From: Desmodesmus armatus
Taxonomy: Eukaryota > Chlorophyta > Chlorophyceae > Sphaeropleales > Scenedesmaceae
DNA: 64,000 nt
Assembly: GCA_007449985.2 (NCBI GenBank)
Contig: VIIQ02000032.1
Coordinates: 1 to 64,000, forward strand
Direction: 5' to 3'
Shown here: in pieces, positions 974 to 39,400 of the stretch
Position numbering within the stretch: position 1 is the first letter of the stretch
How the letters are laid out: each line of letters begins with the position of its first letter
Notes under the pieces: generated by a model
Seen by the model: the letters and a program-made list of their open reading frames with translations, nothing else
The model's database searches: none
What the model was told of the DNA's origin: nothing
Program-made: the position numbers and the translations under genes

Positions 974-6542
<5,569 letters not shown>

Positions 6543-9577: not shown

Positions 9578-9808
9578 TCATTTGATGTGGTCCACCCCAG
9601 GCCTCCTGCTGCTGCTGCTGCTGCTGCTGCTTTTCTTCTTCCCCTGCTTCCCTTGCTTCTTCGCCTTCTTCAGGTGCGGCTGCTGCTGCTGGTAGTGCTG
9701 CTGGTAGCCTCCGCCCCCCATGTAGCCTCCCCACGACCGCTTCCCACCAACCCGCTGCTGATGCTGCTGGTACTGCTGCTGCTGCCCCATCCCACCCACG
9801 TAGTAGCC

Positions 9809-9839
<31 letters not shown>

Positions 9840-12800
9840 CCCATCGCACCCATGTAACCCTGCTGCTGCTGATGATGATGAGGGTGCTGCCGGGGTTGCT
9901 GCATCATCATGCCGCCGTGTGCCTGTGGTGCTGACCACTCTGCAGGGGGCTGCCAGCCACCCAGCCAAGCTGCTGTGGAGGGGACACGTCCAGACTCAAA
10001 GCTGACCAGCAGCTTGGACCCTGCTGCTGTTGGTGCTGCCGACCTGCTGCGCAGCTGAGTGTCAACACCTGGAACAGAGGAAGGGCGGCACACAATACAT
10101 GGAAAAATGCAGTGCTTATGTCAGCCATCTTGTTTACAATGTGCTGCTGTATACCTGGTCGTATCTGAAACCGTTCAGACAGTAGTCATGCCGCATGCAG
10201 TATTGTACTGTGAGGTTGCTTTGTTAGGCTTTCGTTGCCTGGGGTGGCGGTGGGGGACCCAGTGCTAGTTACATTGTGTTCTGTGTTCCCATCTTTGTGT
10301 GTTCCCAGTGTCTCCACAGGAAATCTTGCTACCTCCCCGGTTCCGGGCACTGTCTCACATGCAGTATGGCGCAACACCCCAACCTCTTGCTGACATCCCC
10401 TCCCCCCAAAGAAAACCACATGTTGTTGCCCCTGCATCGCTGGCACATAATTCAGTCCCTTGGGGTGATATGTGATGGTGTGTGTGGGGCCAGGTCCAGG
10501 TCCAGGTGCACCATCCCTCCCTCAGTGAAACCAACACCCCCCACCCCCTTTCTCACCCTCCCCAACAGAACCACTGCCTGTCTTGCTCTGCAAGTGCATT
10601 TGGGGGGGGGGGGGTGCAAGTGGATTTGCCGCTGGGCGGTGGGTTTCCAATAATGCATTCAGTCCTGACCTGCTGGTGTGTGGGGCCAGGTCCAGGTCCG
10701 TTGTGCTGCTGCTGCCGCTGGCGTGGCTGTGTGACAGCAGGCAGTCCACACTGGCAGCTACGTCTGCATGCAGCCGCCACCTGCGAGTTCGTAGTGACGA
10801 CAGCAAGGCAAAATCAGAGCAGCTTGTTTGTTGCTAGTCGACTTCAACCACTCCTTCACCAGCAGCATGAGTCTTCCACAGCAGTATTGCTCGTGTTGAC
10901 GCGCTGTAAGTACATGTCACTGCTGTTGTGGCAAAATTGTGGTGACTTACTTATTGGTGCCCAGAATCTCCACCAGAGAGCCAAAGGTGACGGCCCCACC
11001 ACGCTCCAGACGGGTCTGCAGCAAAACGATATACCACAAGTGCAAGCAGCTTCAGCTGGAGATTGCTACCAATGCTTGCATTGGTGCCAACACATGAAAT
11101 CGTGAAAACGGGCGAGTGCTGTGCTTGCGCTGCTGCAAATTGGGTGAACCGCAAATCAAGCAACCCCACCCCACGCACACCCCACACCCTGCCACTCAAA
11201 CCCCAGCACAGCACAGCACGCAAGGTCACACGGGAGCCAGACCTACCTTCTGGCCCCTGTTGTCGGCGTTTGCCAGCTTGTCACCAAGCGTCACTGCCTT
11301 CACCCCTTCCACCAGTCGCGGACGATGCAGTGGTGCTTGCGCTTCTGCTGATTAAGTAACCTCCACCCCACCCTCCGCCACCTATACCAACATCTACCCC
11401 AGCACGCAATGTCAAATGGAGCCACCCATACCTTCTGGCCCCTGTTGTCAGCGTTTGCCAGCTTGTCACCAAGCGTCACTGCCTTCACCCCTCCCGCCAG
11501 TCCTGCACGTTGCGCTGGCACTTGCGCTTCTGCTAATCAAGTAACCTCCACCCCACCCTCTCCCACCTACACCAACATATACCCCAGCAAGGCCACAAGG
11601 GAGCCATACCTACCTTCTGGCCCCTGTTGTCAGCGTTTGCCAGCTTGTCTCCCAGCGTGACTGCCTTCACCCCTCCCACCAAGCCCTGTAGGTCGGGGTT
11701 GCGCTTGCGCTTCTGCTAATCAAGTACCCTCCACCCCACCCTCTCCCACATATACCAACATATGCCCCGGCAAGGCCAACAGGGAGTCGTACCTACGTTC
11801 TGGCCCCTGTTGTCGGCGCTGGCAAGTTTATCACCCAGCATGAATGCCTTCACCCCTCCCACCAGGCCCTGTAAGTCGGGGTTGCCTGTGCCCCCACTTC
11901 TGCAATTCAAGGGACCCCCACGGACCTCCACGCACACCCCACACTCTCCCACCCACACCCCCGCACAGCATAGCACACAAGATCAAAGGGGGGGCCACAC
12001 GTACCTTCTGCCCCCTATTGTCAGCGCTTGCCAGCTTGTCACCCAGTGTCACTGCCTTCACCCCTCCCACCAAGCCCTGTAGGTCGGGGTTGCGCAGGAG
12101 GTCACCTAGGCTGGAGCCGTGGGCTGTTGACACCAGCAGCACGCCACGGGCAGCAATGGTGCGGCACGCCGCAGCCTCCTGTGTGTAGCAGCACAAAGAC
12201 AGGCGGTTCAAGCACTATCCTTGCTCCTCTACATGGCTGTTCTGAAGGTCGAGGGGGACTAGTCTTGCTAGTGCTGCTGCAGTGCCAGCTGGGCGACAAT
12301 GGCTGACCATGTACAAAGCTGACAGGGCAAGCATCAAGCACATCATGGAGACCCTAGGAATGGCCAGCCTTTGCAGCAGACGTGGATGCTAGTGTCGGGT
12401 TGGGGCTTGCACATGGTGTGGCAAGTAGCATTCAGGATGCCTGGATCGTTGATGTTCATTGACACATAGCACCCCTACAATGCCTGTAACGGGTGTGAAC
12501 CACACATCAGGCCGCATGCATGCCAGGTGCAGTTGTGTCAAAATACATTGGACATTCCCCCAGCAGCATCGTGCACCAAGCTCATGCATGTAATGCTCCA
12601 AGCCAAGCCTCTAGCTGTTGCCCACCTCCTTGGTTGCAATCTCATCCACAATGATGACCTGCAGGAGCAAGATTTGCAGCAGTGGGTATGGGGGCAAAGT
12701 TCACTAACATGCCTGATCAGATGCCCCAGAGTGACTCACTGCACTACTAAGAGGAGGATATGCTGTCCATCTCACTCAACTGGCTGCATCACAGCACTGC

Positions 12801-15800
12801 ATTGCCACTACTGCCACTTTCACGCTGCAGCAATGGTGGCTGGTGCGACTATGCCGACAACCCCCTAAGTCGGCCCGGTCTGGGAGCATGAGAGGCGGGA
12901 AGTCGTGCCTGTCTGCCGCCGGACGCCATTCACTCAGTGACTGTGCTTCTATATGTTGTCCATCATTATGGCTAAGAACGATTCACACCAGGACAGGCAG
13001 TGGTTGCAGCAAGGACTGCACAGCATGCCATGCTTCCATAAGTTGTGTGAGTAGCCATGCCTGCTGTCTGCTGTGCTGTGCCGTGCTGTGGTGTCATGCC
13101 AGCCTGGCGTACCTCAGGTGTGTGGTTCATGACAGCCTCGACCATGACTGCTGCCTGCTGGTGGCGCCGTGGCACCATCATGCGGCGCGCGTTGCCGATG
13201 CAGGGGTGAGGCTGCTCGCAGTCACCTGCGACACACACAACACACAGAAAGTACATGGGTGTCAGTTTCACTACGTACCTGTTGATATTGGCAGGTTCTC
13301 ACTAGGGTTTGATTGCACTTGCCCCCTCTCCTCCTTACTCAGGAAGCCACCACCGGGCTCATGCGCCAAGCCCATCCCCCACCAACTGATTCCGCAGCCG
13401 CTGTGCCTCATCCCGCCCAATCCTCTTGCCCCCTCCCTCCCCCCCCCCCCCCCGCCCCCGTCGTCTTATAAGCATAACCACCACCCTCTCACCTGCGATC
13501 TCGTTGCTGGTGTCCACAATCACCACAGTCATGCGGATGTCACCTGCTTTGAATGTGAGGCTTGCACCCATCGCATCCCCCCCCCCCCCACCTCCCCACT
13601 TACTCAGGGAGCATCCACCGTGCGCTCATGCGCCCAGCCATTCCACCACCAACACGATCCCCAGACGCCATGCCTCAATTCACCCAAACATCTTGCCTCC
13701 TCCCTTGTCCTCCCCCCCCCCCCGGGCTTACTATCCTCTCACCTGCTATCTCGTTGCTGGTGTCCACAATCACCACAGACATGCCCAGGCCCCCCTGGCT
13801 CTCAGGCAGGCTCATCAGCCGCGCCACATCACGCAGCAGTGTGGTCTTGCCTGCAAAATATACCCCAGTACAACAAACAAAACAAAGTCACTGACCTTGC
13901 GCAGTGCACAGGCTACAATTCAGGCAGAGACATAAGACAGACTGCACGTTTGAGCGATGCCATGTATTAGGGATAGCGATGCCGAACCGCGCTTCGCATT
14001 GCTCAGAGATAGCACGCACCTACGCCGGGCGCCCCAGCAGCAGCAGACCCTTTGAGGGCTGAGAGGCGATGGACGGCACCAGGCTGCTGCCACTGCCGCT
14101 GTCGAGGCCCCTTGCTGCATCCCGCATGCCGCTCAAGACGTCAGCCAGCAGGTCTGCAACACCTGCAGCAGCAGCGGGACAGCATGCCACAACATTTGAG
14201 CGACTCACAACTTTGCTTGATCTCTTGCATTGTATGCCAACTGATGCAGGCAAACACAGTCAAGGATGCCAACGCAGACAATGCCGTGACAAGAAGCACA
14301 AACCTGTTGCAGAGTTGGCAGTGCCAGATCATCACAATCACACGCCTACATGGATGGCACCACACCGACACAACCAACACCATGCACCACCTGCCCCGTT
14401 GCCCCACTCCCTCCCACCCACCTGGCACGTCCCCCCCCCCCCCAAAACACCTTCTGTACCCAGCCAGCCGCCCATCCACCCGCCTGCCCAGTCACCACAA
14501 TCCAGTCTTGCCCACTGAAGTGCCTGCCCACGCAGTACCGTGGGGCAGTACATTAACCCCTGCCCTGTTCCGCATGGTGCTGATGCGGTGCAGGCTGCCA
14601 GGCACACCCAGCCTGTTGATAGCGCACTGGGAAACATACGCACTGCCCCCCCCCCCCCCCCCCGCGCCCCGGGCTGCTGCTGCCACGGCTGTCTTCACTA
14701 CCACCAACCCCAATACCCCACACACAGACCAAGCAGACACCCTCCTCCTCCCCCCTGCCCCCCCCCCAAAGCCCACCTGGCACATGCCTGCCCACTCGGT
14801 AGGTGAGGCCATACACCGCCCCCGCCCTGTCCCTCATGGCGCTGATTCGATGAAGGCTGCCAGGCGCACCCAACCTGCTGATAGCACTCCGAAACATACG
14901 CACTGCCCCCTCCCCCCCCCCCCCCCCCCCCGCGCGCCGTGGGCGGCTGCCACCACGGCTGTCATCACTGTCACCAGCCCTAACCCCACACACAGACCAA
15001 GCAGACCCCCCCTGCCCCCCCCCCCCACCCCCCCGCCCCCCAAACACACCTGGCACATGCCTGCCCACTCGGTAGGTGAGGCCGTATACTGCGCCCGCCC
15101 TGTCCCTCATGGCGCTGATGCGGTGAAGGCTGCCAGGCACACCCAACCTGCTAATAGCACTCCGAAACATACCCACTGCCCCCCCCCCCCCCCCCCCCGA
15201 GAGCTGCTGCCACTGCTGTCATCACTGCCACCAGCCCCAACCCACACACAGACCAAGCAGACACCCTCCCCTCCCCTCCCCCCCCCCCTCCCCCCCCCCC
15301 CCCTCAACACACCTGGCACATGCCTGCCCACCCGGTAGGTGAGGCCGTACACTGCCCCCGCCCTGTCTCTCATGGCGCTGATGCGGTGCAGGCTGCCAGG
15401 TACACCCAGCCTGTTGGTGTCGCTGAAAAAGCTGCAGCGCCGACCCCCAGGGCTGTTGGTGATGCCACTGCCATTGTTGCCGCCAGCCCCGGCTGACTGG
15501 TTGGCACCCCGCCTGGCGGTACCACGGGTGGTGCGCTTGGCTGCCGCTGATGATGGCTGCAAGCGGGACAAAACACACGACAAACATGATGCTTGGAACA
15601 GAGTCGGTGGTTGGCACATGGTGTGGGACCACAGGCAGTGCTGATTATTTGCATTGCTGTTGCAGCACTCCAGAACACATGCAGACTCATGCCTGACGCT
15701 TGGCCGTGACCTTCGCAAGCATTATCACCAAATGAAACAGTTTGATTATCACCATTTGAAACAGTCATGCCCCCCCCCCCTACACATACAAACTTTGTAT

Positions 15801-17882
15801 TGCATGCCACCGATGGAACGCAAACATGATCCATATCTCCCCGCCCCCACACACAGGAACATCCAATTTTCAACACACACCTGCATGTCCCCTGTGACTG
15901 CCTCCTGCAGCCGTGCCAGTGCCTCATCCAGATCGAGGGTGAGTGGCAGCTCCACACATGACTTGTCAGACAGCCTCAGGCTGATGGGTCGGCCCAGGTC
16001 AGCAGCCAGGTCAACCAGGAAGGGCTGAGACCCGGGCTGGGTGTAAGGGGCTAGCTCCTGCAGCAGCCTGGAGGGTTAGAATTGGGGGGGGGGGGGGAGC
16101 AGTGGGCAGATGTGGGGTGGAGGTGGTGGGGAGGGCTTCAGGTGTAGGTCGACCCAAGGGATGCCAAAAAAATGTGGGATGCCAAGTTATGATTGAGTTG
16201 CCTAACCTGGATGCAACCAAGTAGGAGGCCGGCCCAGGTCTGCAGCCAGGTCAACCAGGGCTGAGACCCGGGCTGCGTGTAAGGGGCTAGCTCCTGCAGC
16301 AGCCTGGGTGGGGGGCAGAGGTAGGCAGAGGGGTGGTGTGCGAGAGTAGGGGGAGGGGCTGTGAGTGTAGGTCGATCCAAGGGGTGTCAAGGGGTGTCAA
16401 ACAAAAGCAGAAACACAAGGTTTTGGGTTGAGTTACTAATCTATTGCTTATCTATATGAACCCAGTAGGATGCCAGCCCAGGTCTGCAGCCAGGTCGGCC
16501 CAGGAAGGGCTGGGATCCGGGCTGCGGGTAAGGGGCTAGCTCCTGCAGTGCAGGAGGTTGCTTGTTTCCTGCTTCTTTGCCAGTGTATGCACAGTGCTGA
16601 CAGGGACCCTTGTTGCATCCATGGCATGCCTTCCTACACAAGCCCTACACAAGCCCTACACAAGCCCAGAGCGTCAGTGCATGTGTGTGTGCTGGGCTCT
16701 GTGTTCAGCCAGCTTACCTTTTGTTGGGCGGCAGCAACTCCAGCAAGCTGTTCAGATCATCCGCACTGTCCTCCTCTTCCATGCTGACACTGCCCTGTGC
16801 GCCACGCCTGCCCCTCACGGCCCGTACCTTCCGCCTGCTGCCGCTGCTGCCATTGCTGCCGGCGCCGCCGATAGCATCACCGCTGCCCTCCTGTTTTGAA
16901 AGCTCTGACAGATACATGGTGTATGAACCATCCTCTTCCTGCTGGGGGTGCATCTGGAACACTTCGGGAAATGGTGCTGGGCCTTGTGCGGCTGCTGCGG
17001 CTGCTGCTGCATGGCCTGCGTGCATCAGCTGCTGCTGCTGCTCCAGCTGGCGCTGGTGCTGGTGCTGTTGGCGGGACTCCTCCTGCAACATCAGCACCTC
17101 CTGCACCAGCTCCTCCTGCAACATTAGCAGCACGTGAACGCCTAGTCAGAGGACTGCACAGGACGCAAACTGCGCTGAGAAACACAGCCTGAACATTATG
17201 GCAAGGCATGTGCACAAGAAGCAAGCCCTTACAGCATCTACCAGGACCAAATGCACCAATAAAGTTATGCAAGGCCTGGTGCAAGCCCCCTCAAGCTGAC
17301 AGTACTGAAAATGTGTACAGGTGCAGCTGCTTTCACGTTCAACAGGTGGTGCCCACTCAGCGCACACTGAGCCCGCACCTGAGGGTTGTCAGGGTTCCTG
17401 TCCTCCTGCAATGAATTTGCAGGCTGCCACATGCCTGCTGCTGCTGGAGCAAAGGCAGGTCCTGCAGACATGCCCATCCCCATCCCCATGCCAATGGGTG
17501 GTACTGCTGGGGGCGCAAAGAAAGGCGCTGCGGGTGCCATTGATGGCATGATCGCAGGTGGTGGTTGGTTGCCGCTCATGTCTGCATAGGCCAGCACATA
17601 GGGCACGTCCAGGCACACTGTATTCCATCGGCACAAGGTGAATGCTGGGTCCGCCAGCAGCAGTTCCTTGATCTTGCTGTCGTATCCGGCTGCTTTGAGC
17701 ATCTTTTTGACAGATTTAACCTTCAGATTCTGGCTCAGCATGTTGCCAAGCCTGCCAATGTCGCACTCGTGGTCGGGCTGCCAAAGAAGTATGGTGGCAG
17801 CAGCGTGCTTGACAGCATTCTGTGCATCGCCTGGAGGCCACAGTATAGTGAAGGCTGCGTGACACATGCTGCGTCTATTCAT
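9578..17882 (-). CDS. SPD1: Ycf45/SPD1-like P-loop ATPase, nuclear-encoded, with internal exon duplications
   Basis: Ycf45 proteins are AAA-type ATPases related to the SpoIIIAA ATPase family; the plant nuclear homologue SPD1 acts in chloroplast development. Core exons on the minus strand: about 17882-17379 (start uncertain), 17115-16718, 16067-15881, 15556-15313, 14162-14020, 13850-13743, 13225-13113, 12658-12626, 12178-12005, 11015-10951, 10068-9578. Landmarks are LLELLPPNKR, LVDLAADLGRP, GSLHRISAMRDRAGAVYGLTYRVGR, Walker A APGVGKTT split across 14020/13850, VVIVDTSNEIAG, NARRMMVP, Walker B VIIVDEIATKE, STAHGSSLGDLLRNPDL, VKAVTLGDKLASADNRGQK and RLERGGAVTF. A Gln-rich tail ends in a Lys/Ser-rich patch. 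A missing G in the C4 run at 14032-14035 breaks Walker A as read. The 10951/10068 junction is off by one base. Introns hold extra copies of four exons (separate entries). The N-terminal region before residue 150 is not family-like and is uncertain. Confidence 0.85.
10236..10358 (+). repeat. Dispersed repeat, arm 2
   Basis: Reverse-complement partner of 8294-8418, located in the last intron of the SPD1-like gene (between 10951 and 10068). No open frame or terminal repeat was recognised within it. Confidence 0.8.
11247..12178 (-). repeat. Five tandem copies of the VKAVTLGDKLA exon
   Basis: The complete exon is 12178-12005. Four shorter copies follow in the intron at 11899-11797, 11712-11614, 11529-11432 and 11344-11247, spaced about 180-200 bases apart. 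All have a CAG acceptor and a GTAGGT, GTATGG or GTACGT donor, and all keep VKA(V/F)(T/M)LGDKLA(S/N)ADNRGQ. Only the copy at 11712-11614 (99 bases) is a clean phase-0 insert. The copies of 103, 98 and 98 bases would shift the frame. The exon at 12005 joins directly to 11015 in frame, so the copies are not needed. Confidence 0.9.
13333..13850 (-). repeat. Two copies of the VVIVDTSNEIAG exon end
   Basis: The true exon is 13850-13743. A copy of its last ~50 bases and its GTGAGA donor lies at about 13545-13493 and reads MTVVIVDTSNEIAG. The intron following each copy is also similar, with a C-rich run, giving a repeat period of about 250 bases. The extra copy has no Walker A part. Confidence 0.85.
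14520..15420 (-). repeat. Four tandem copies of the LHRISAMRDRAG exon
   Basis: The in-frame exon is 15556-15313. Three more copies of its last ~100 bases lie in the next intron: 15147-15050, 14874-14777 and a decayed one at about 14623-14520. The first two extra copies are 98 bases with intact CAG acceptor and GTGTG or GTGGG-type donor and read LG(V/A)PGSLHRISAMRDRAGAVYGLTYRVGRHVP. The fourth loses similarity after LHRISTMRNRAG. Each unit carries a long C run (G on the coding strand). The phases differ at the two ends, so including an extra copy would shift the frame. Confidence 0.9.
15990..16560 (-). repeat. Three copies of the LLQELAPYTQPG exon start
   Basis: The exon that starts at 16067 (RLLQELAPYTQPGSQPFL) has partial copies at about 16305-16205 (LLQELAPYTQPGSQP) and 16548-16465 (LQELAPYPQPGSQPFL), about 240 bases apart. 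They fill the intron between 16718 and 16067. Acceptor-like CAG bases precede the copies, but they run out of frame soon after the shared part. Confidence 0.85.
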
Positions 17883-19815
17883 GATGCACAGACTGCTGGC
17901 ACTGGGTCCTGCAAAGCTGATCTCCAGCTGCTTTGGACCAGTCTGCTGCTGTTGGTTTCCGAGCCAGCGCTACTGCAGGTGATCGCCGTCCCAAACGGTG
18001 AGCATCTTGACGAGACAGTCTAGGCAACTCTCGAGGGGCCCGATGGCCTAATTGTTGTGACCGTTTCGGTCAAACACAATTAAATGACAGCCAGGTTGGC
18101 CTGTTCAGGAAGCAGAGCCATACAAATACGCATGCAAAACGTAAAATCGTGCACTCATAATGTTTTGAGAGCAGTCTTGAGTGATCCGCTGCCGATGAGG
18201 TGAGCAGTTGCGCAACAGCTGTCTGCAGACTGGAAGCAAGGGGTACTGGGGGGTACTATTATATATTATAGTACCCCTTGCTCAGCAATGCTGGAAGAGG
18301 AGGACAGTGCTGATGATCCCAATGAACTGCAGACCACAAAGGCAATACCACATGAAGTGGCCAAACTTTGGACTACTACTGAAAGCAGCTCCATGCACAC
18401 GATCAGTACGTCATGTCACTTGCGTTTGCATAGCAAATCTACAGAGGTTTGATGCACCCTCATCAACTTGAGGCCTGGCCCGCTTGTGTGCCAGTGCGAC
18501 TACCGGTGATGGGTGGACAGTTTTTTTCAATGACCAAGAGGCTGTGGCAGGCCGAGCCAACTGGCTAGGCACCTTGGGCCAGTCATGTCAGTATTCTAGG
18601 CAGGCAATGAGCACATTGCAAGTACAGTCCAACCCACAACCTAAACTCATAAACGCATACTGTTACATCAAAGCCTGGCCACACCTCCCCCTGATGCCGC
18701 CCCCATCAGGAACTTGTTCAGCGCCTCAACTGTCTGGAGGCTGCTCAGTGCGGCCTATGCTTCCCTCAACTAGGCAACGACCGTAGCAATGCTATGCATC
18801 ACGCACAATGAAGCATCCCTTGCACCATTCACACCCGCACCTATGCAGGAGGTGGTGTTGCCCACACCCCACCCACACCACCCAGCACACTCATAGACAC
18901 TGCGTAGCTGCAACAAGGCATGCACAAGTGGCCCCCACCCCAAAAGACATTTCACCCTACCTACGCACGTTGACTGGCACCCGCCACTGCTGCAGCTTAC
19001 TTGTTGCCACCATGCTGACCCCTAGATGCCTGACCAAGCCCCTGCTGACCCCAACTCCTGGGCCCTGATACGGTAGGACCATGGAGGCTACCATGCTGGC
19101 TCTTCCTGCCATTTGGCAAGTTCTCCAGTGAAACGCACGGTAAAAGCATGCAACACATTTTCAAATGCCGCTGCTGCTGCGCTCTGCTCCTGGGCTGCCA
19201 TCACCACTAGCAGTCCTGAGGCCCTGCCAGTGCACATGACTGCTCCTCCTGCTGCTGCTGCTGCTCAGGTCTGCTGAGGGGCGTGCCAACCTGGCACACC
19301 GTCAGCTCACATCCGCTGCCCTGCCAGTGCACATGACCGCACAGGCCCCTGCTGCAGCTGCTGCTGCAGTGGCTGCAAGTGGTGCTGCCGAGTTGGTCCT
19401 TGGGGCTGTCAGCAGCGAGCCTGCACACACAACAGCATGAGACAGGCAGGGCGGAGGGCCCTGAAGGCATAGCGCAGCACAGCACGGCACAGTAGGGCAG
19501 AGCACTTGGCAGCAATCGCTTGACATGCCACAGCTAGAAAGCCTTATTTCAACGGCACACCATTGTATCCCACAGTCCCTATACTCTCTTCTCGACCATG
19601 ACAGCTCTTTCCCTTCAGCTCTGCAAGCACCCTTGAGGCATCCCTTTGAATGCTTATGGCAATGGAGACCGCGCAAAGCCCATAGCCATGCTCATGCTCT
19701 GCTGCCAAGCAGCTGCCTCAACACAGCCGAGTCAGCAGCAGCTGCCTACCAAATCCTGCTGGCCCAGCAGTGCCGTCATGCCTCTACCGCTGATCAGTTT
19801 GCCTTCAACTCACCT
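17883..19815. other. Intergenic region with a nested hairpin
   Basis: No exon is supported. It contains the inverted repeat at 18235-18282 and a direct repeat of CCCTGCCAGTGCACATGAC at 19212 and 19319. Alanine-rich minus-strand frames at 19302-19515 have no clear splice context or family match. The 3' UTR of LRR gene A and the promoter of the SPD1-like gene must lie here. Confidence 0.45.
18235..18282. repeat. Two overlapping inverted repeats
   Basis: AGCAAGGGGTAC (18235-18246) pairs perfectly with GTACCCCTTGCT (18271-18282). Alternatively GGGGTACTAT (18250-18259) pairs with ATAGTACCCC (18268-18277) around an eight-base TA loop. The right arm is shared, so the two hairpins exclude each other. 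Typical of a template-switch (fold-back) event. Confidence 0.85.
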
Positions 19816-22173: not shown

Positions 22174-25100
22174 GTCCGGCATCCCGATCTGCAGCGTGCC
22201 TTTGCTGCAGAGTCCTCCAAGTGGTTCCTGTCAGTCAAGCGTGCCTGCAAACGATGGAAGACACAGAAAAAGCTGGCAGACACAGCAGTTCCCCACCTAC
22301 TGTCCCTGGTCAACCCCACCCTCACAAAAAAGGTGGTCAGCAACACCACAGCAGCAATCGCAGAGCGCCTGGGTACGTATCTGCCGACTGCTGGCAAGAG
22401 TTTCAGAGTGTGCTGAAAGGGCAGCAGTAGTTGGATCCAAGGGGCGACTTGCAGCGGAGTTGCCAGATGGTATCGCTATCCCTGCTGCCCTCAGGCAGTT
22501 TGCAACATTGGGTTCGCAACAGTGGGGTCAACACTATGATTGACACCAGCTGCATGTGTGCTGGAACCTGCAGGATGGGACAAGGTGACGTGTGGACAGC
22601 TGAAGTCCATGCTGGAGTCCTGCACACAGCCAGAGCAAGCGCTGCGCCTACTGCTGCGCAACAGCCGCAGCCACCCAGCCACGCGTGCAGCAGAGGCAGC
22701 CATTAAGCAGCAGGAGAAGCAGGACAAGAGCACGCAGCAGCAAAAGAGCCAGACCAAGGCAGCCGCTGCGCCTGGCAGCAGCGCTTCAGATAGTGATGAG
22801 GACTCTGAGGGAGACAGTGACGGGGAGGATGCAGAGTCGGAGTGGGAGCGGAAGCACAGCTGGCTGGCGCTGCCACGGGATGTGCCTGTTAAGGGTGTGC
22901 GTGCTGGGGTTGTTCCGGAGACTGACCCAAGGGGGCCGCTGCGGGGCCAGAAGGGCATCTGGGCAGTAGAGGACCTGCCCGAGGGGCACCTGATAGGTAG
23001 GTCCTGCTGCACCTGCAGGAGACCCACGTTACTTGTAGTTATCCCGTTTGGGATGTCTGTGCTTGTTGGACAGCACAGAAGTGATTGCCTCTTGGGGAAT
23101 GAGCAGGGTGAGGCAGTCGGTAGCACTGCAGCAGAGACGGGGATCCAACCTGACACTCCCTGATCCAGGCTAGAGCCAAATGTACCAACATGTGCTGTTG
23201 CTGGCAACATATCTTCAGCCTACCAAGCCCCATGGGCCGAGGCCATGACCCTAAACCCTAAACCCTCAACCTAAAGCCCTCAACCCTAAACCGTTTGCTG
23301 AAGCCCTTGTGCTGGCATACTTGTGTGCCTGTTGTGTGCTGCTGTGACTGCTGCGGGTGCAGGTCCGTACCGGCACTACTGCATGTACACCAAGGCATTT
23401 GATGCCATACTCAAGACCAAGCCCTCACACTGGCAGGGCCCCCCATCAAGCTGGAAGCTGCAGCTGGACGTGAGGCCCTCCTGACTGCTGCTTCAGCTCC
23501 GTCACTGCTACTGCTGTTGAAGTGGCAACTTCGGGAGCTTAGATAGGCCCCTTGTACCCTTCGTGTGTCAGGCATGTGCATGCCAAACCTCTAGCCCCTT
23601 CTATATCTCTAGCCACCTACTAGACTCTGATGGCTGACTATTTGCCAGCCCTATTTTCAAAACCTGTTCAGAGGTAGGCTGTACCGCTAGCTGTGCAAGT
23701 TAAGTTGCCTCTGCTGGACCTCAAAGATGCTGCTGCTGCCATGTCGTGCAGAGCTATGCCTGCAATGACACTACTGGTGAGGTAGGTGTTGTGGAGGTTT
23801 CGCCAAACGAGGAGGCACATGCCCCGCCCGGGAAGTACAGCCTCATCTTCAGTGGCTTTGGGTGAGCACAGCTTGGCAAGAGAAGAGAAGAATCTGAGCA
23901 AATGCCTGCAGATGGTCAAGGTTTGGCCGGATAGCAGGAGTGCAGCCAAGTAGCCACAACCAAGACTGCTTTTTGAGGGAGTGTATCCCCACAGGGCAGT
24001 ACAGTACATCACACAAATCGGCCTGTCTGCAATGCCTCGAGCTTAGGCATGCTTGAGGCCTTGATGCTCCCAGATGCAAGCAACGTGTTCTATGGATGAG
24101 CTGATGCGACTAGGTGTGTTGAGCATATCTATGCAGCAAATGCACTGCCACAGCATCACTGCCGCCTTATCACTTCCGATATGTGTTTGTGTGCATGCGA
24201 CTGCAGCTAGGACAAGCAGAATGCGTACGTTGCCTCTGCTTTGCAGGTTGGGCAATGAGACGGCATACGCAAACGACCCACACCTGGACCCTGTGACACA
24301 CTTGACAATGGTGAGACCAGGGGCTCACCACACGGTCATCACAGGGCCGCCGCATGGCAATGTGCCGGTCGGCAGCTAGCAGTGCGAGGCCTGCCAGGGA
24401 CAGTGTGGGTGTAGACGTCTTGTTTGTCTGCTTCTGCGGCACAGCGGGAGGGAGGCGGCAGTCTCCACAGCAGCGCTGAGCAAGCGGTGTCAACACACTA
24501 CAGCAGCATATAATCATTGGGTGGACGCAACCTGCTCGGAACAACTGCATCCGAGCTTGATCTTTGCCACAAAGCTGCGCTGATGAGTGCACATCTACCC
24601 ATGTGACGAACTTGTGTGTGCCGTTGGGGTGCAGCCCGGCATGCCAGATGAATACCTGGGGCCCCACATTCCAGACCCTGCTAGCGGCAAGGAGCTACCG
24701 GGCTCTGCACAGGTTTGTGAGCAGAAGCTGTGGCTGTTTTTGTGTGGCCACAGCTTTGGTTCTGTCAGCAGAAACATTGACTTCATAAGCATGTGTTGTT
24801 GGTGCACTTCCCAAGCCCAGCATGTTGTGCTAGGGACGGCAGCTTGGCAGCTATTTCCAATTGTCAGCAGCCAGTTGTATGCAGCCCCTAGTGGCTGCAA
24901 GGGAAGCCTGGTTAGAGTATGGCATTAACTTTAAACCTCATCCTGTGGAGCTGGTGCCCCCGGCCATTGTTTGCTGTCAACACACTGCATGCTGCCGGTC
25001 TCTGCAGATTTGTCATGTCAGCATCTGTGGCTGGGCCTACGCCTTCATGATCACCATCCTACCCCTGCGGAAGGACTATGAAGTGCTGTATGACTACGGG

Positions 25101-36420: not shown

Positions 36421-39400
36421 ATGCAGTTTGTGAGGGACAATGACGCCGTGGGGGCTATTCTTGCTGGAGCAGGCTCGCGTCCTGCAGAGGAGCTTGTGAC
36501 TGCCCTGCGCAAGGTCAGTGCCCAGCACTAGCAGGGTACTTGATAGGGCAGCTATGAATAGCACAAGCCTGCCAACCAAGCTGCACGCAGTACATGTATG
36601 TGGGAGGCAGTGGTACGTCACACAGCCACATTAGCAAGTTGCAATGGAGGCATGGGGGGTTTCAAGCCCGTCATGTGTTTGCGCTTCCCAACAAGCAGCA
36701 GCTTGGCTGGTCCAGTGTGTGCTGATCATCACCGTTTGCTGTCAGCGCTGCAGGGAGGCTACCTGCGCAAATATGGGCGGTTTGGGAAGCCGAAGCAGCA
36801 TTGGTTCAGGCTGTCACATGATGACAAGGAGCTGCTGTGGGACTCCAGCAATGTGAGCAGCAGCCAGGCAGGCAGGAGCTAGGCAGCAGCGTCTGTAGGG
36901 TTCTGTCACCTGCAACAGCGATTACGCAACCGCGTGTGCCTGCCAGACTGATTGCTGCGCAAAAAAGGCGCTCAGTGGTGCTTCTGACCCACAGCACCAC
37001 GGCAGCGAGTATAGCTGCAGCTGTGGAAGCCGGCAGTGCCACAGCAGCAGAGGCGCTACTTGCAGTGACACACTTCAGAGTCCACTGGTTCAGGCAGTGG
37101 CCATCAAGGCAGCTGTTTTGGTGCTTCAGATGTCGGCAGCCGCCGAAGACAGCAGCTGGTTGCCGTCTTTGATGGCGGCACGTCAGGGTTTACTACCATC
37201 GCTGTCTCGTCAGAAGAATACGTATGCACATGCTCACTTTGCTTGTGTGCGGGTCCATGTTTGTTGCTCACTCCCTGCAGGGCAAGATCCGCAGCATCGC
37301 ACTGCTGTCAGTGTCCAGTATGTTCAGGGCCAGACAACTCCAGTGTTCAGGCGTGAGCCGTTGCCTGATTATGAGTCAGTCTCCTTCTCACTGCTGTACT
37401 CTGAGGGCAAGGGATCCGCCAAGGAGCGCAGCCTGGACTTGGTGTGCAGGAACTCTCAGGAGTTTGAGACATGGTGAGGGTTGGAGTGCTGCGCAAGAGT
37501 GCTGGGCATGCGACTCAGGACGGCGGGCTGCATCATTGGGCCTGGAACTTGGCCCACAAATTGGGTAGTCAACAGGGCAGCAGCTAGCAGCGTGTTGGCC
37601 TGCAGGAGCCGAAGCAGCTGTTGACGTGTGCTGACATGTACCCATGCACTGCTGTGCTGGTGTGGTGATTCCTGCAGGTTTTTGGGCATTCAGCTGGTCA
37701 TTGTGCTGAACCAGAACCTGGCACTGCAGCAGCAGCAGAACCAGGCGGCAGCAAATGGGCAGGCGGCGGCAGCAGCAGCAGTGTCGACGCGCAACAGCGG
37801 ATCTGGTGGTGCCACGCCTCTCAGGAAGCAACCGTCAGGGCCACTGTCGCCACGGCGGGTGAGTCTGCAGCTGGGGATGGCGTTGCTGCGGCTGTTGCTG
37901 GCTGACCCTGCTCAGAATGCAGTGGACCTGCAGAAGGGTAGTCAACTGGACGGCAATGAGGGCTTGTGTGAAACAGCAGCTGCAGCTGCTATGACGTACA
38001 GAGTGGGCTCTTTGGCCTTGCAGCCGCACACAGCAGCAACATGACGGCAGTGGAGGTTCACTTGGCTTGGCCTGGATGTTGGATGTGTGGCAGTTGACTC
38101 TCCCATATCTCTCACCACCGTCCGCATGTACATTCACAGCATCATGTAACGCTGCCTGCTGTCCTGGATCAACACCTGCTCAACTTTGCAGTAGGAAGAG
38201 AAGGGGGACAAGATGTATCCCTCACCTGCCGCATGTACGCTCACAACTTTGTGTGGCACTGCCTGCTGTCCTCATTCCACTGTCTGCTTCTCCCCGCAGT
38301 CGGACGAGAAGGGGGACAAGATGCAGGAGTTCAGGCAGATAGCTGCCTCGCTACAGCCCGTCAAGGCGGCCCTCACTGGCTCCACCCAGCGCAGCATCAG
38401 CAGGGAGCTAGCGCTGTCAGTCAAGCGGGAGATTGGTGACTGCTACATATGGGGCAGCTGGGGCGAGGCAGACGCGGGCGACGCCAGCGATGGGGCGCTG
38501 CAGTGCTGCGGACTGCCGACTATGGTGGCCAACACGCATGCACTGGATGTGATTCAGGTGGGTGGGTGAGGCCAGCACGGCCAGAGGCAGCAAGGTGCAG
38601 GGTTTTTGCCCTGTTGGTTCGCAAGTGCTGGGATGATGGTGCGATCTATGAACGTGTAGCTGACCAAGCAAGTGACCAGCAACAGCATTCTATCTCATCA
38701 CTCAGTCTGTTGTCAATAGTTGGCCTGGTGGTGCCAGCTTAATTGAGTCTGATAAATAAGCAGCTTGGCCCTGCATGGAGCGCTGGACAGTTGAATAGCA
38801 CAGATGGCAGGTGTCGAGCTGCACACTCAGCATAGTGGTTGTGCTGGTGCATGTTGCATGTTCTGCATGTGTGTGACCTGCAGGTGGCTGTGGGCCCCCG
38901 CCATGCAGCCCTGTTGACGCGTGGGGGTGAAGTGTACACCTGGGGAGCAGGCATGGGGGGCAACGGCGGCAACGGCACTGCAGCAGGCAGCAATTATCCG
39001 CAGCAGGTGAGGGCGCCTGTGCAGGCCGGGCTGTCTACATGAGTATGGTGTTGTTCGTGCTGGCATGCATGAGTCATCCTGAAAAAGCTTTGCTGGTAGC
39101 TTGCTGAGGAGGCTGCAGTTTCTGGCATCACAGCTGCTGCATGTGTTCTGTTGTTGTTTTTGGTATTTCCTGCATCTACCTGTTCACCAGCTCCCCAGCA
39201 TGCCTGCTGCTGTACCGCTTCAGGTGACTCGCCTCACAGGCAAGGGCACTGCTGCAGTGGCCTGCGGCAACTCCTACACTGCGGCAGTGCTGAGCGATGG
39301 CAGCCTATGCACCTGGGGCTCAGGGCTGGGAGGCCAGCTGGGCCTGGGGCCAACGTGACTGCTGCAGTGTGGCCGACACGTGTGCTGGCAGGTCTTGAGG

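Follow-up and report, generated by a model that had tools for sequence, protein, structure and literature searches.

How does a single algal gene come to carry extra copies of pieces of four of its exons, and why do most of these copies, lying in introns, differ from the working exons mainly at synonymous sites? These questions are raised by a gene in the window, by which we mean the whole 64,000-base stretch of DNA that was analysed, bases 1-64000 of contig C29 in a 115.8-Mb genome of 831 contigs.

The host gene and its four arrays

On the minus strand, the host gene begins with an ATG at 17882, ends with a stop at 9578-9580 and has about 12 exons, recognized by exon motifs, tblastn and the PF19568 match. 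The exons were joined via GT-AG sites and tblastn, with the junction between exons 11 and 12 uncertain. A preliminary description of this DNA had called the gene SPD1/Ycf45-like, and the family is supported by two results. The protein joined from the exons, with the Walker A residues supplied by hand, matches PF19568 (Spore_III_AA) at 53.6 bits versus a cut-off of 27, and its best named relatives are mostly chlorophyte, with Tetradesmus, Monoraphidium, Gonium, Trebouxia and Chlorella among them and a single match labelled Balamuthia. An AAA model is also matched above its cut-off. Ycf45 and SPD1 are names used for this family. The gene shares both its domain and its closest proteins with the Ycf45/SpoIIIAA-like ATPase family, so that what is odd about it is the gene structure, not the protein family. 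One exon is damaged in the assembly: beside its donor, exon 5 has one base fewer than the exons of both paralogs on contig C84. The deficit, within 14020-14034, breaks the Walker A frame, and an intact Walker A is absent from the assembled gene. The missing base may be an assembly or sequencing indel, or a real lesion, in which case the gene as assembled is without a normal Walker A motif.

Four separate tandem arrays are found in the gene, with 3, 4, 2 and 5 copies; in transcript order we call them D, C, B and A. In array D the repeated part is the 5' end of exon 3 (spacing 236/249, period about 240; repeat family D11). The other three repeat 3' ends: of exon 4 in array C (spacing 262/273/263, period about 265; D7), of exon 6 in array B (spacing 250; D16), and of exon 9 in array A (spacing 185/182/183/208, period about 185; D3). 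Repeat searches and alignments thus confirm the copy numbers first described and come close to the periods of about 240, 270, 250 and 190 given there. A self-comparison, which the preliminary description had asked for, recovers all four arrays by self-BLAST, with best bit scores from 138 (B) up to 649 (C). TRF scores arrays A and C at 859-1094, and B and D are absent from its list. The four arrays exceed chance.

Two statements of the preliminary description must be given up. The affected exons were said to be non-adjacent, and exons 3 and 4 adjoin. Exons were said to be copied, and all 10 extra copies are partial exons with one splice site and adjoining intron; whole-exon duplication is rejected, as the alignments show exon ends in 10 of 10 extra copies. 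The extra copies of A, B and C comprise about 50-115 nt from the 3' end of the exon, together with the donor and intron, and those of D about 90 nt from the 5' end of exon 3, together with upstream intron. In the following list, working copies were placed by exon motifs and tblastn, extra copies by repeat search and alignment.

9578..17882, minus strand: Ycf45/SpoIIIAA-like P-loop ATPase gene
15881..16067, minus strand: exon 3, working copy of array D
16459..16548, minus strand: array D copy 1 (D1), 5' part of exon 3 with a 1-nt insertion; it has lost the homologous acceptor
16215..16299, minus strand: array D copy 2 (D2), 5' part of exon 3, preceded by an AG acceptor; a 5-nt deletion breaks the frame
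15313..15556, minus strand: exon 4, working copy of array C
15047..15204, minus strand: array C copy 1 (C1), 3' part of exon 4 with its donor; read from an acceptor-like GCAG it is in phase 1-1 (by eye)
14774..14931, minus strand: array C copy 2 (C2), 3' part of exon 4 and donor, like C1
14521..14669, minus strand: array C copy 3 (C3), decayed, with frame indels and the homologous donor lost
14020..14162, minus strand: exon 5 (Walker A)
13743..13850, minus strand: exon 6, working copy of array B
13480..13540, minus strand: array B copy (B1), 3' part of exon 6 with its donor; read from AAAGCAG it is in phase 1-1 (by eye)
12005..12178, minus strand: exon 9, working copy of array A
11782..11887, minus strand: array A copy 1 (A1), 3' part of exon 9 and donor
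11599..11704, minus strand: array A copy 2 (A2), 3' part of exon 9 with its donor; read from TTAGCAG it is in phase 0-0 (by eye)
11417..11522, minus strand: array A copy 3 (A3)
11232..11337, minus strand: array A copy 4 (A4)
11124..11136, minus strand: GCAGCAGCGCAAG, in the intron beyond the last A copy; it has GCGCAA in common with exon 9 (by eye)

Do the copies retain both splice sites, as the preliminary description often found them to do? The donor half of that claim stands, with GT at the homologous donor in seven of the eight extra A, B and C copies and C3 the sole exception. The acceptor half holds only loosely, since the AG acceptor-like sites of these copies derive, by eye, from sequence other than the real exon acceptor. 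Read by eye from such upstream AG sites, B1, C1 and C2 are phase 1-1 pieces and A2 is a phase 0-0 piece, and only these four are in-frame cassettes; A1, A3 and A4 are out of frame from their upstream acceptor, and indels interrupt the coding blocks of C3, D1 and D2. AG|GT stands at the exon end in the working copies of A, B and C and in every extra copy of these three arrays except A1 and the decayed C3. It is in register at existing donors, in full exon and copy both, for A2, A3, A4, B1, C1 and C2, and nowhere in D. Within the coding blocks, both C1 and C2 read AG|GTTGGG at a place where the full exon 4 reads AG|GC. Comparison of copies with working exons led us to reject AGGT splice-equivalence inside the exon blocks as a general feature.

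The paralogs bear on the age of the arrays. Contig C84 holds two tandem relatives of the host gene (L011-L012, C84:5735-16311), the first 5'-truncated and the second fuller, although exon 9 of the second diverges after DLVGGV. Their exon matches to the host gene are 68-86% identical, the arrayed exons are single-copy in them, and outside the exons almost nothing aligns, while the intron parts of the array copies still align at 60-88%. By this sequence comparison the arrays are younger than the split from the C84 paralogs. The single-copy exons on C84, and a divergence that varies within and between arrays, also support the serial tandem duplication originally proposed. Bases 1-30000 of C84 hold two arrays of their own, at 10442-11653, which are at least partly glutamine-rich coding repeats.

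Similar arrays elsewhere in the genome

Is the host gene exceptional? With arrays defined as self-BLAST matches of 45 nt or more at an offset of 90-700, after low-complexity filtering, 19 sampled 10-kb stretches contained 33 arrays, with none in eight of the 19 and four or more in five. This sample is biased, as 14 of the 19 stretches lie on contigs surfaced by an earlier search and four of the five array-rich ones are among them; the remaining five stretches held 1, 0, 1, 4 and 0 arrays. Four arrays in 8.3 kb are thus in the tail of the distribution, yet not exceptional, within a biased sample. That one gene should be hit at four places had been thought unusual, a judgment that finds no support, for this genome, in the five array-rich stretches of this biased sample, or in the arrays of the same kind in a Lon-like gene and two SNF2-like genes.

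In the first SNF2-like gene (L035, C139:85300-86300), an exon has 3' partial copies, three units in total, and one 5' partial copy; in the second (L037, C43:518300-519500), an exon has about five units. The arrays of both copy parts of exons holding the GLGKT and DEAH motifs. The third gene (L025, C205:60001-70000), which we take to be Lon from the AAA match of its product and its Lon motifs, has many exon-end arrays, including one of eight units around GDPAA..LLEV, all eight of which carry AG|GT at the same place. By eye, the 5'-type copies in L025 (PPEV) and L035 end without an obvious donor. Model searches for exon duplicates in the kinesin, AMP-binding and SNF2 families, in which 264 rows (142, 23 and 99) were judged by eye and 14 of 68 candidates were scored in the 23-row search, gave two confirmed loci, both SNF2-like, which suggests that genes with duplicated exons are a minority. 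One kinesin candidate (L036, on C55) proved not to be a duplication, and a kinesin pair (C50/C647) consists of diverged paralogs, 77-87% identical. In a scan of 1,639 stop-free segments, those with at least five changes were tested at P<0.01; up to about 16 chance hits are possible and the rows overlap, so that clear cases alone are relied on.

Several other repeats were seen along the way. The window has further tandem pairs at 1668-1892, 5288-5548, 19221-19365 and 38116-38323, and short telomere-like ACCCTAA repeats at 23248-23292, internal to the contig. Nearly the whole of one 10-kb stretch (L020, C612:200001-210000) matches itself at an offset of about 380 with 89% identity, and is a long tandem array.

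Might the arrays be a product of assembly, with diverged haplotypes or strains woven into false tandem copies? The missing base of exon 5 suggests a base error or lesion. Moreover, among 40 arrays (the window and 18 sampled stretches), the top-scoring pair is never above 92.0% identical, which is odd for an ongoing process; pairs of 96-99% identity do exist, and were seen only in L009, L010 and L037. This shortage of near-identical top pairs could reflect either few young arrays or the collapse of near-identical ones by the assembler. The arrays themselves are hard to reconcile with such weaving, as they have up to eight units, regular periods and shared junctions. Nor were haplotigs that could have supplied the copies found among the scored candidates in the assembly for the host gene, for window 48-52.5 kb (40 of 550 candidates) or for the Lon-like gene (40 of 328). 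In the search from window 48 kb, the first 4.5 kb or so of the query matched itself alone, and the rest is a gene family. We regard false assembly as unlikely. Were it the answer, the locus would be a warning of phantom exon pieces in the gene models of such assemblies.

Substitutions in the extra copies

Seven array sets together show 48 synonymous and 19 non-synonymous changes, where 45 non-synonymous changes are expected when the observed changes are moved to random positions with the same base. In this test array B alone is not significant (P=0.45), and L037 is borderline (P=0.055). Codon models, in our own implementation and with the tree fixed by hand, and testing solely the branches within the extra copies, reject omega=1 for C (p=8e-4, omega 0.05), for A (p=7e-5, omega 0.12) and for A2-A4 (p=0.005, omega 0.10). 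Thirteen selected pairs of working exon and copy differ by 75 synonymous and 13 non-synonymous changes, against at least 137 non-synonymous changes expected under free drift; the pairs, which have working exons in common, are not independent, 27 of the 137 come from A1 alone, and the set includes neither C3, D1 nor any L037 copy. The frame-broken D2 has four synonymous changes and no non-synonymous ones. Array B alone has one of each and gives no constraint signal. The compared blocks are short, 42-129 nt, and those of B, L035 3' and L037 overrun the donor by one to three codons. The signal agrees in two other genes (L035, L025). Most extra coding blocks, then, are not drifting freely; in A, C, D2 and the two other genes they differ from the working exon mainly at synonymous sites, a constraint-like pattern that is surprising for sequence inside introns.

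One might think that ordinary neutral intronic repeats had clipped exon ends by chance. Arrays are common in the sampled stretches, C3, D1 and D2 are decaying, and array B is without the signal, all as such repeats would have it. The deficit of non-synonymous changes, which appears in the random-position test, the codon models and the 13 pairs, runs against this explanation, and we consider it highly improbable. From the same deficit we also argue against two other neutral schemes, in which copies are seeded serially or trade places within one lineage.

Are the copies instead in use? Splicing would draw on equivalent exon-end copies, as cassettes or alternative halves, and selection at the protein level would follow. 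Such use would fit the constraint on copy-only branches, the homologous donors kept in A, B and C, the four in-frame pieces read by eye, and the uniform AG|GT of the eight Lon-like units. However, most of the partial copies could be added to the full exon but not swapped for it, and their inclusion would give the protein a second catalytic segment; the constraint on D2 looks no weaker than that on intact copies in spite of its broken frame, a poor fit to present use; and the 5'-type copies of L025 and L035 seem, by eye, to have no donor to offer. We hold use of the copies to be possible, though doubtful.

Another explanation places the divergence in functional blocks, either as alleles, in a hybrid or highly diverse population, or as paralogs since lost, from which recent unequal exchange or gene conversion would have produced copies that are now dead and young. 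Synonymous-only differences even in D2 would then be expected, as would the dS of 0.23-0.45 in 10 of the 13 pairs (the exceptions being B1 at 0.11, L035 5' at 0.64 and A1 at 1.05). An island of conserved exon with diverged flanks also fits, as in the A3/A4 pair, where the exon is 96% and the intron 61% identical. The comparison of exon and intron parts bears on constraint as well: full copy versus extra copies gives 81-91% for exon and 60-75% for intron in array A, and 88% versus 66% in array B, which speaks for it; in array C the two are about equal (87-92% and 81-88%), and in the A1/A2 pair the intron (88%) exceeds the exon (84%), which speaks against it. Against exchange, a dS near 0.3 would be extreme for alleles, no second haplotype was found among the scored candidates for the host gene or the Lon-like gene, and A1-A4 and C1-C2 share junctions, so that part of their divergence postdates the partial state. 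We find this explanation somewhat more doubtful than use of the copies.

Origin of the arrays and known systems

What started the duplications? Slippage at G/C runs had been suggested. The window has 22 G/C runs of at least nine, 14 of them inside the host gene, and 12 of these lie in or beside arrays B, C and D, which would fit the suggestion in part. Array A has no such run inside, and a run is present in 15 of the 40 arrays, where arrays placed at random within the same stretches would give 11.2. With so weak an enrichment, and with array A lacking a run, slippage at G/C runs is rejected as sole cause; the runs are a helper at most. For array A, the 6-nt GCGCAA found in exon 9 and in GCAGCAGCGCAAG is a possible microhomology of the founding duplication.

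We lean, with some reserve, toward the host gene being one example of genome-wide 'exon-end arrays', produced by recurrent local tandem duplication that splicing tolerates, with the coding sequence of most copies not freely drifting. A stretch of about 100-400 bp, reaching from an exon end across its splice site into the adjoining intron, would be duplicated in tandem, probably through microhomology- or homopolymer-driven slippage or unequal exchange, and some arrays would expand afterwards. The duplications would be tolerated since the pre-mRNA can skip the copies. A copy ending in AG|GT could act as acceptor and then as donor, so that splicing would step over the copy and leave the mRNA unchanged. 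The most likely reasons for the constraint would be occasional use by splicing, or replacement by, or exchange with, functional exon versions. Use by splicing would explain the deficit simply, but sits badly with frames that are broken and exons that are copied in part. Copies that are broken yet changed at synonymous sites only would be explained by exchange with functional versions that had diverged, but this needs very high diversity, of which the candidates scored in this assembly for the host gene and the Lon-like gene gave no sign. A bolder proposal, which we offer only tentatively, is that many genes keep spare exon ends in their introns, on which splicing or exchange draws while selection guards the amino acids, a splice-level redundancy of exon halves.

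No description of exon-end arrays in an alga was found among the open-licence titles and abstract openings listed, and the passages of PMC8226300 considered do not mention them. New introns and exons have been proposed to arise from tandem duplications that span splice junctions, of which usually only the end products are seen. If our preferred account of exon-end arrays is true, this genome preserves many of the intermediates, spread over several genes, and selection on the intronic copies can be measured. It could then be used to test splice-site choice among equivalent copies, and to ask whether redundancy or recombination sustains them.

How do the arrays compare with known systems? Tandem exon duplication that gives mutually exclusive exons involves whole exons with both splice sites. 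The likeness lies in nearby extra copies of coding exons that are apparently under selection; here, in contrast, exon ends are copied, often out of frame, and the homologous acceptor and donor are not both duplicated. Dual-specific splice sites in tandem-repeat genes, of which polyubiquitin UBC is an example (PMC10809524), resemble the present case in that each repeated unit carries AGGT, a potential donor and acceptor. The UBC sites delimit whole ubiquitin units and are backed by RNA, whereas the present units are partial exons in introns, with a putative use in splicing. Another related system is intron gain in which exon segments containing AGGT undergo tandem genomic duplication, as reviewed in PMC3443670. 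In both, exon sequence with AG|GT is duplicated in tandem, and for the present arrays, too, we propose that the extra sequence is tolerated because splicing removes it. No new intron is seen in the host gene: in the exons compared, its alignments with the C84 paralogs stop close to the same exon boundaries. The unit here straddles an existing exon-intron junction, reaches up to eight units, and recurs in several genes of one genome.
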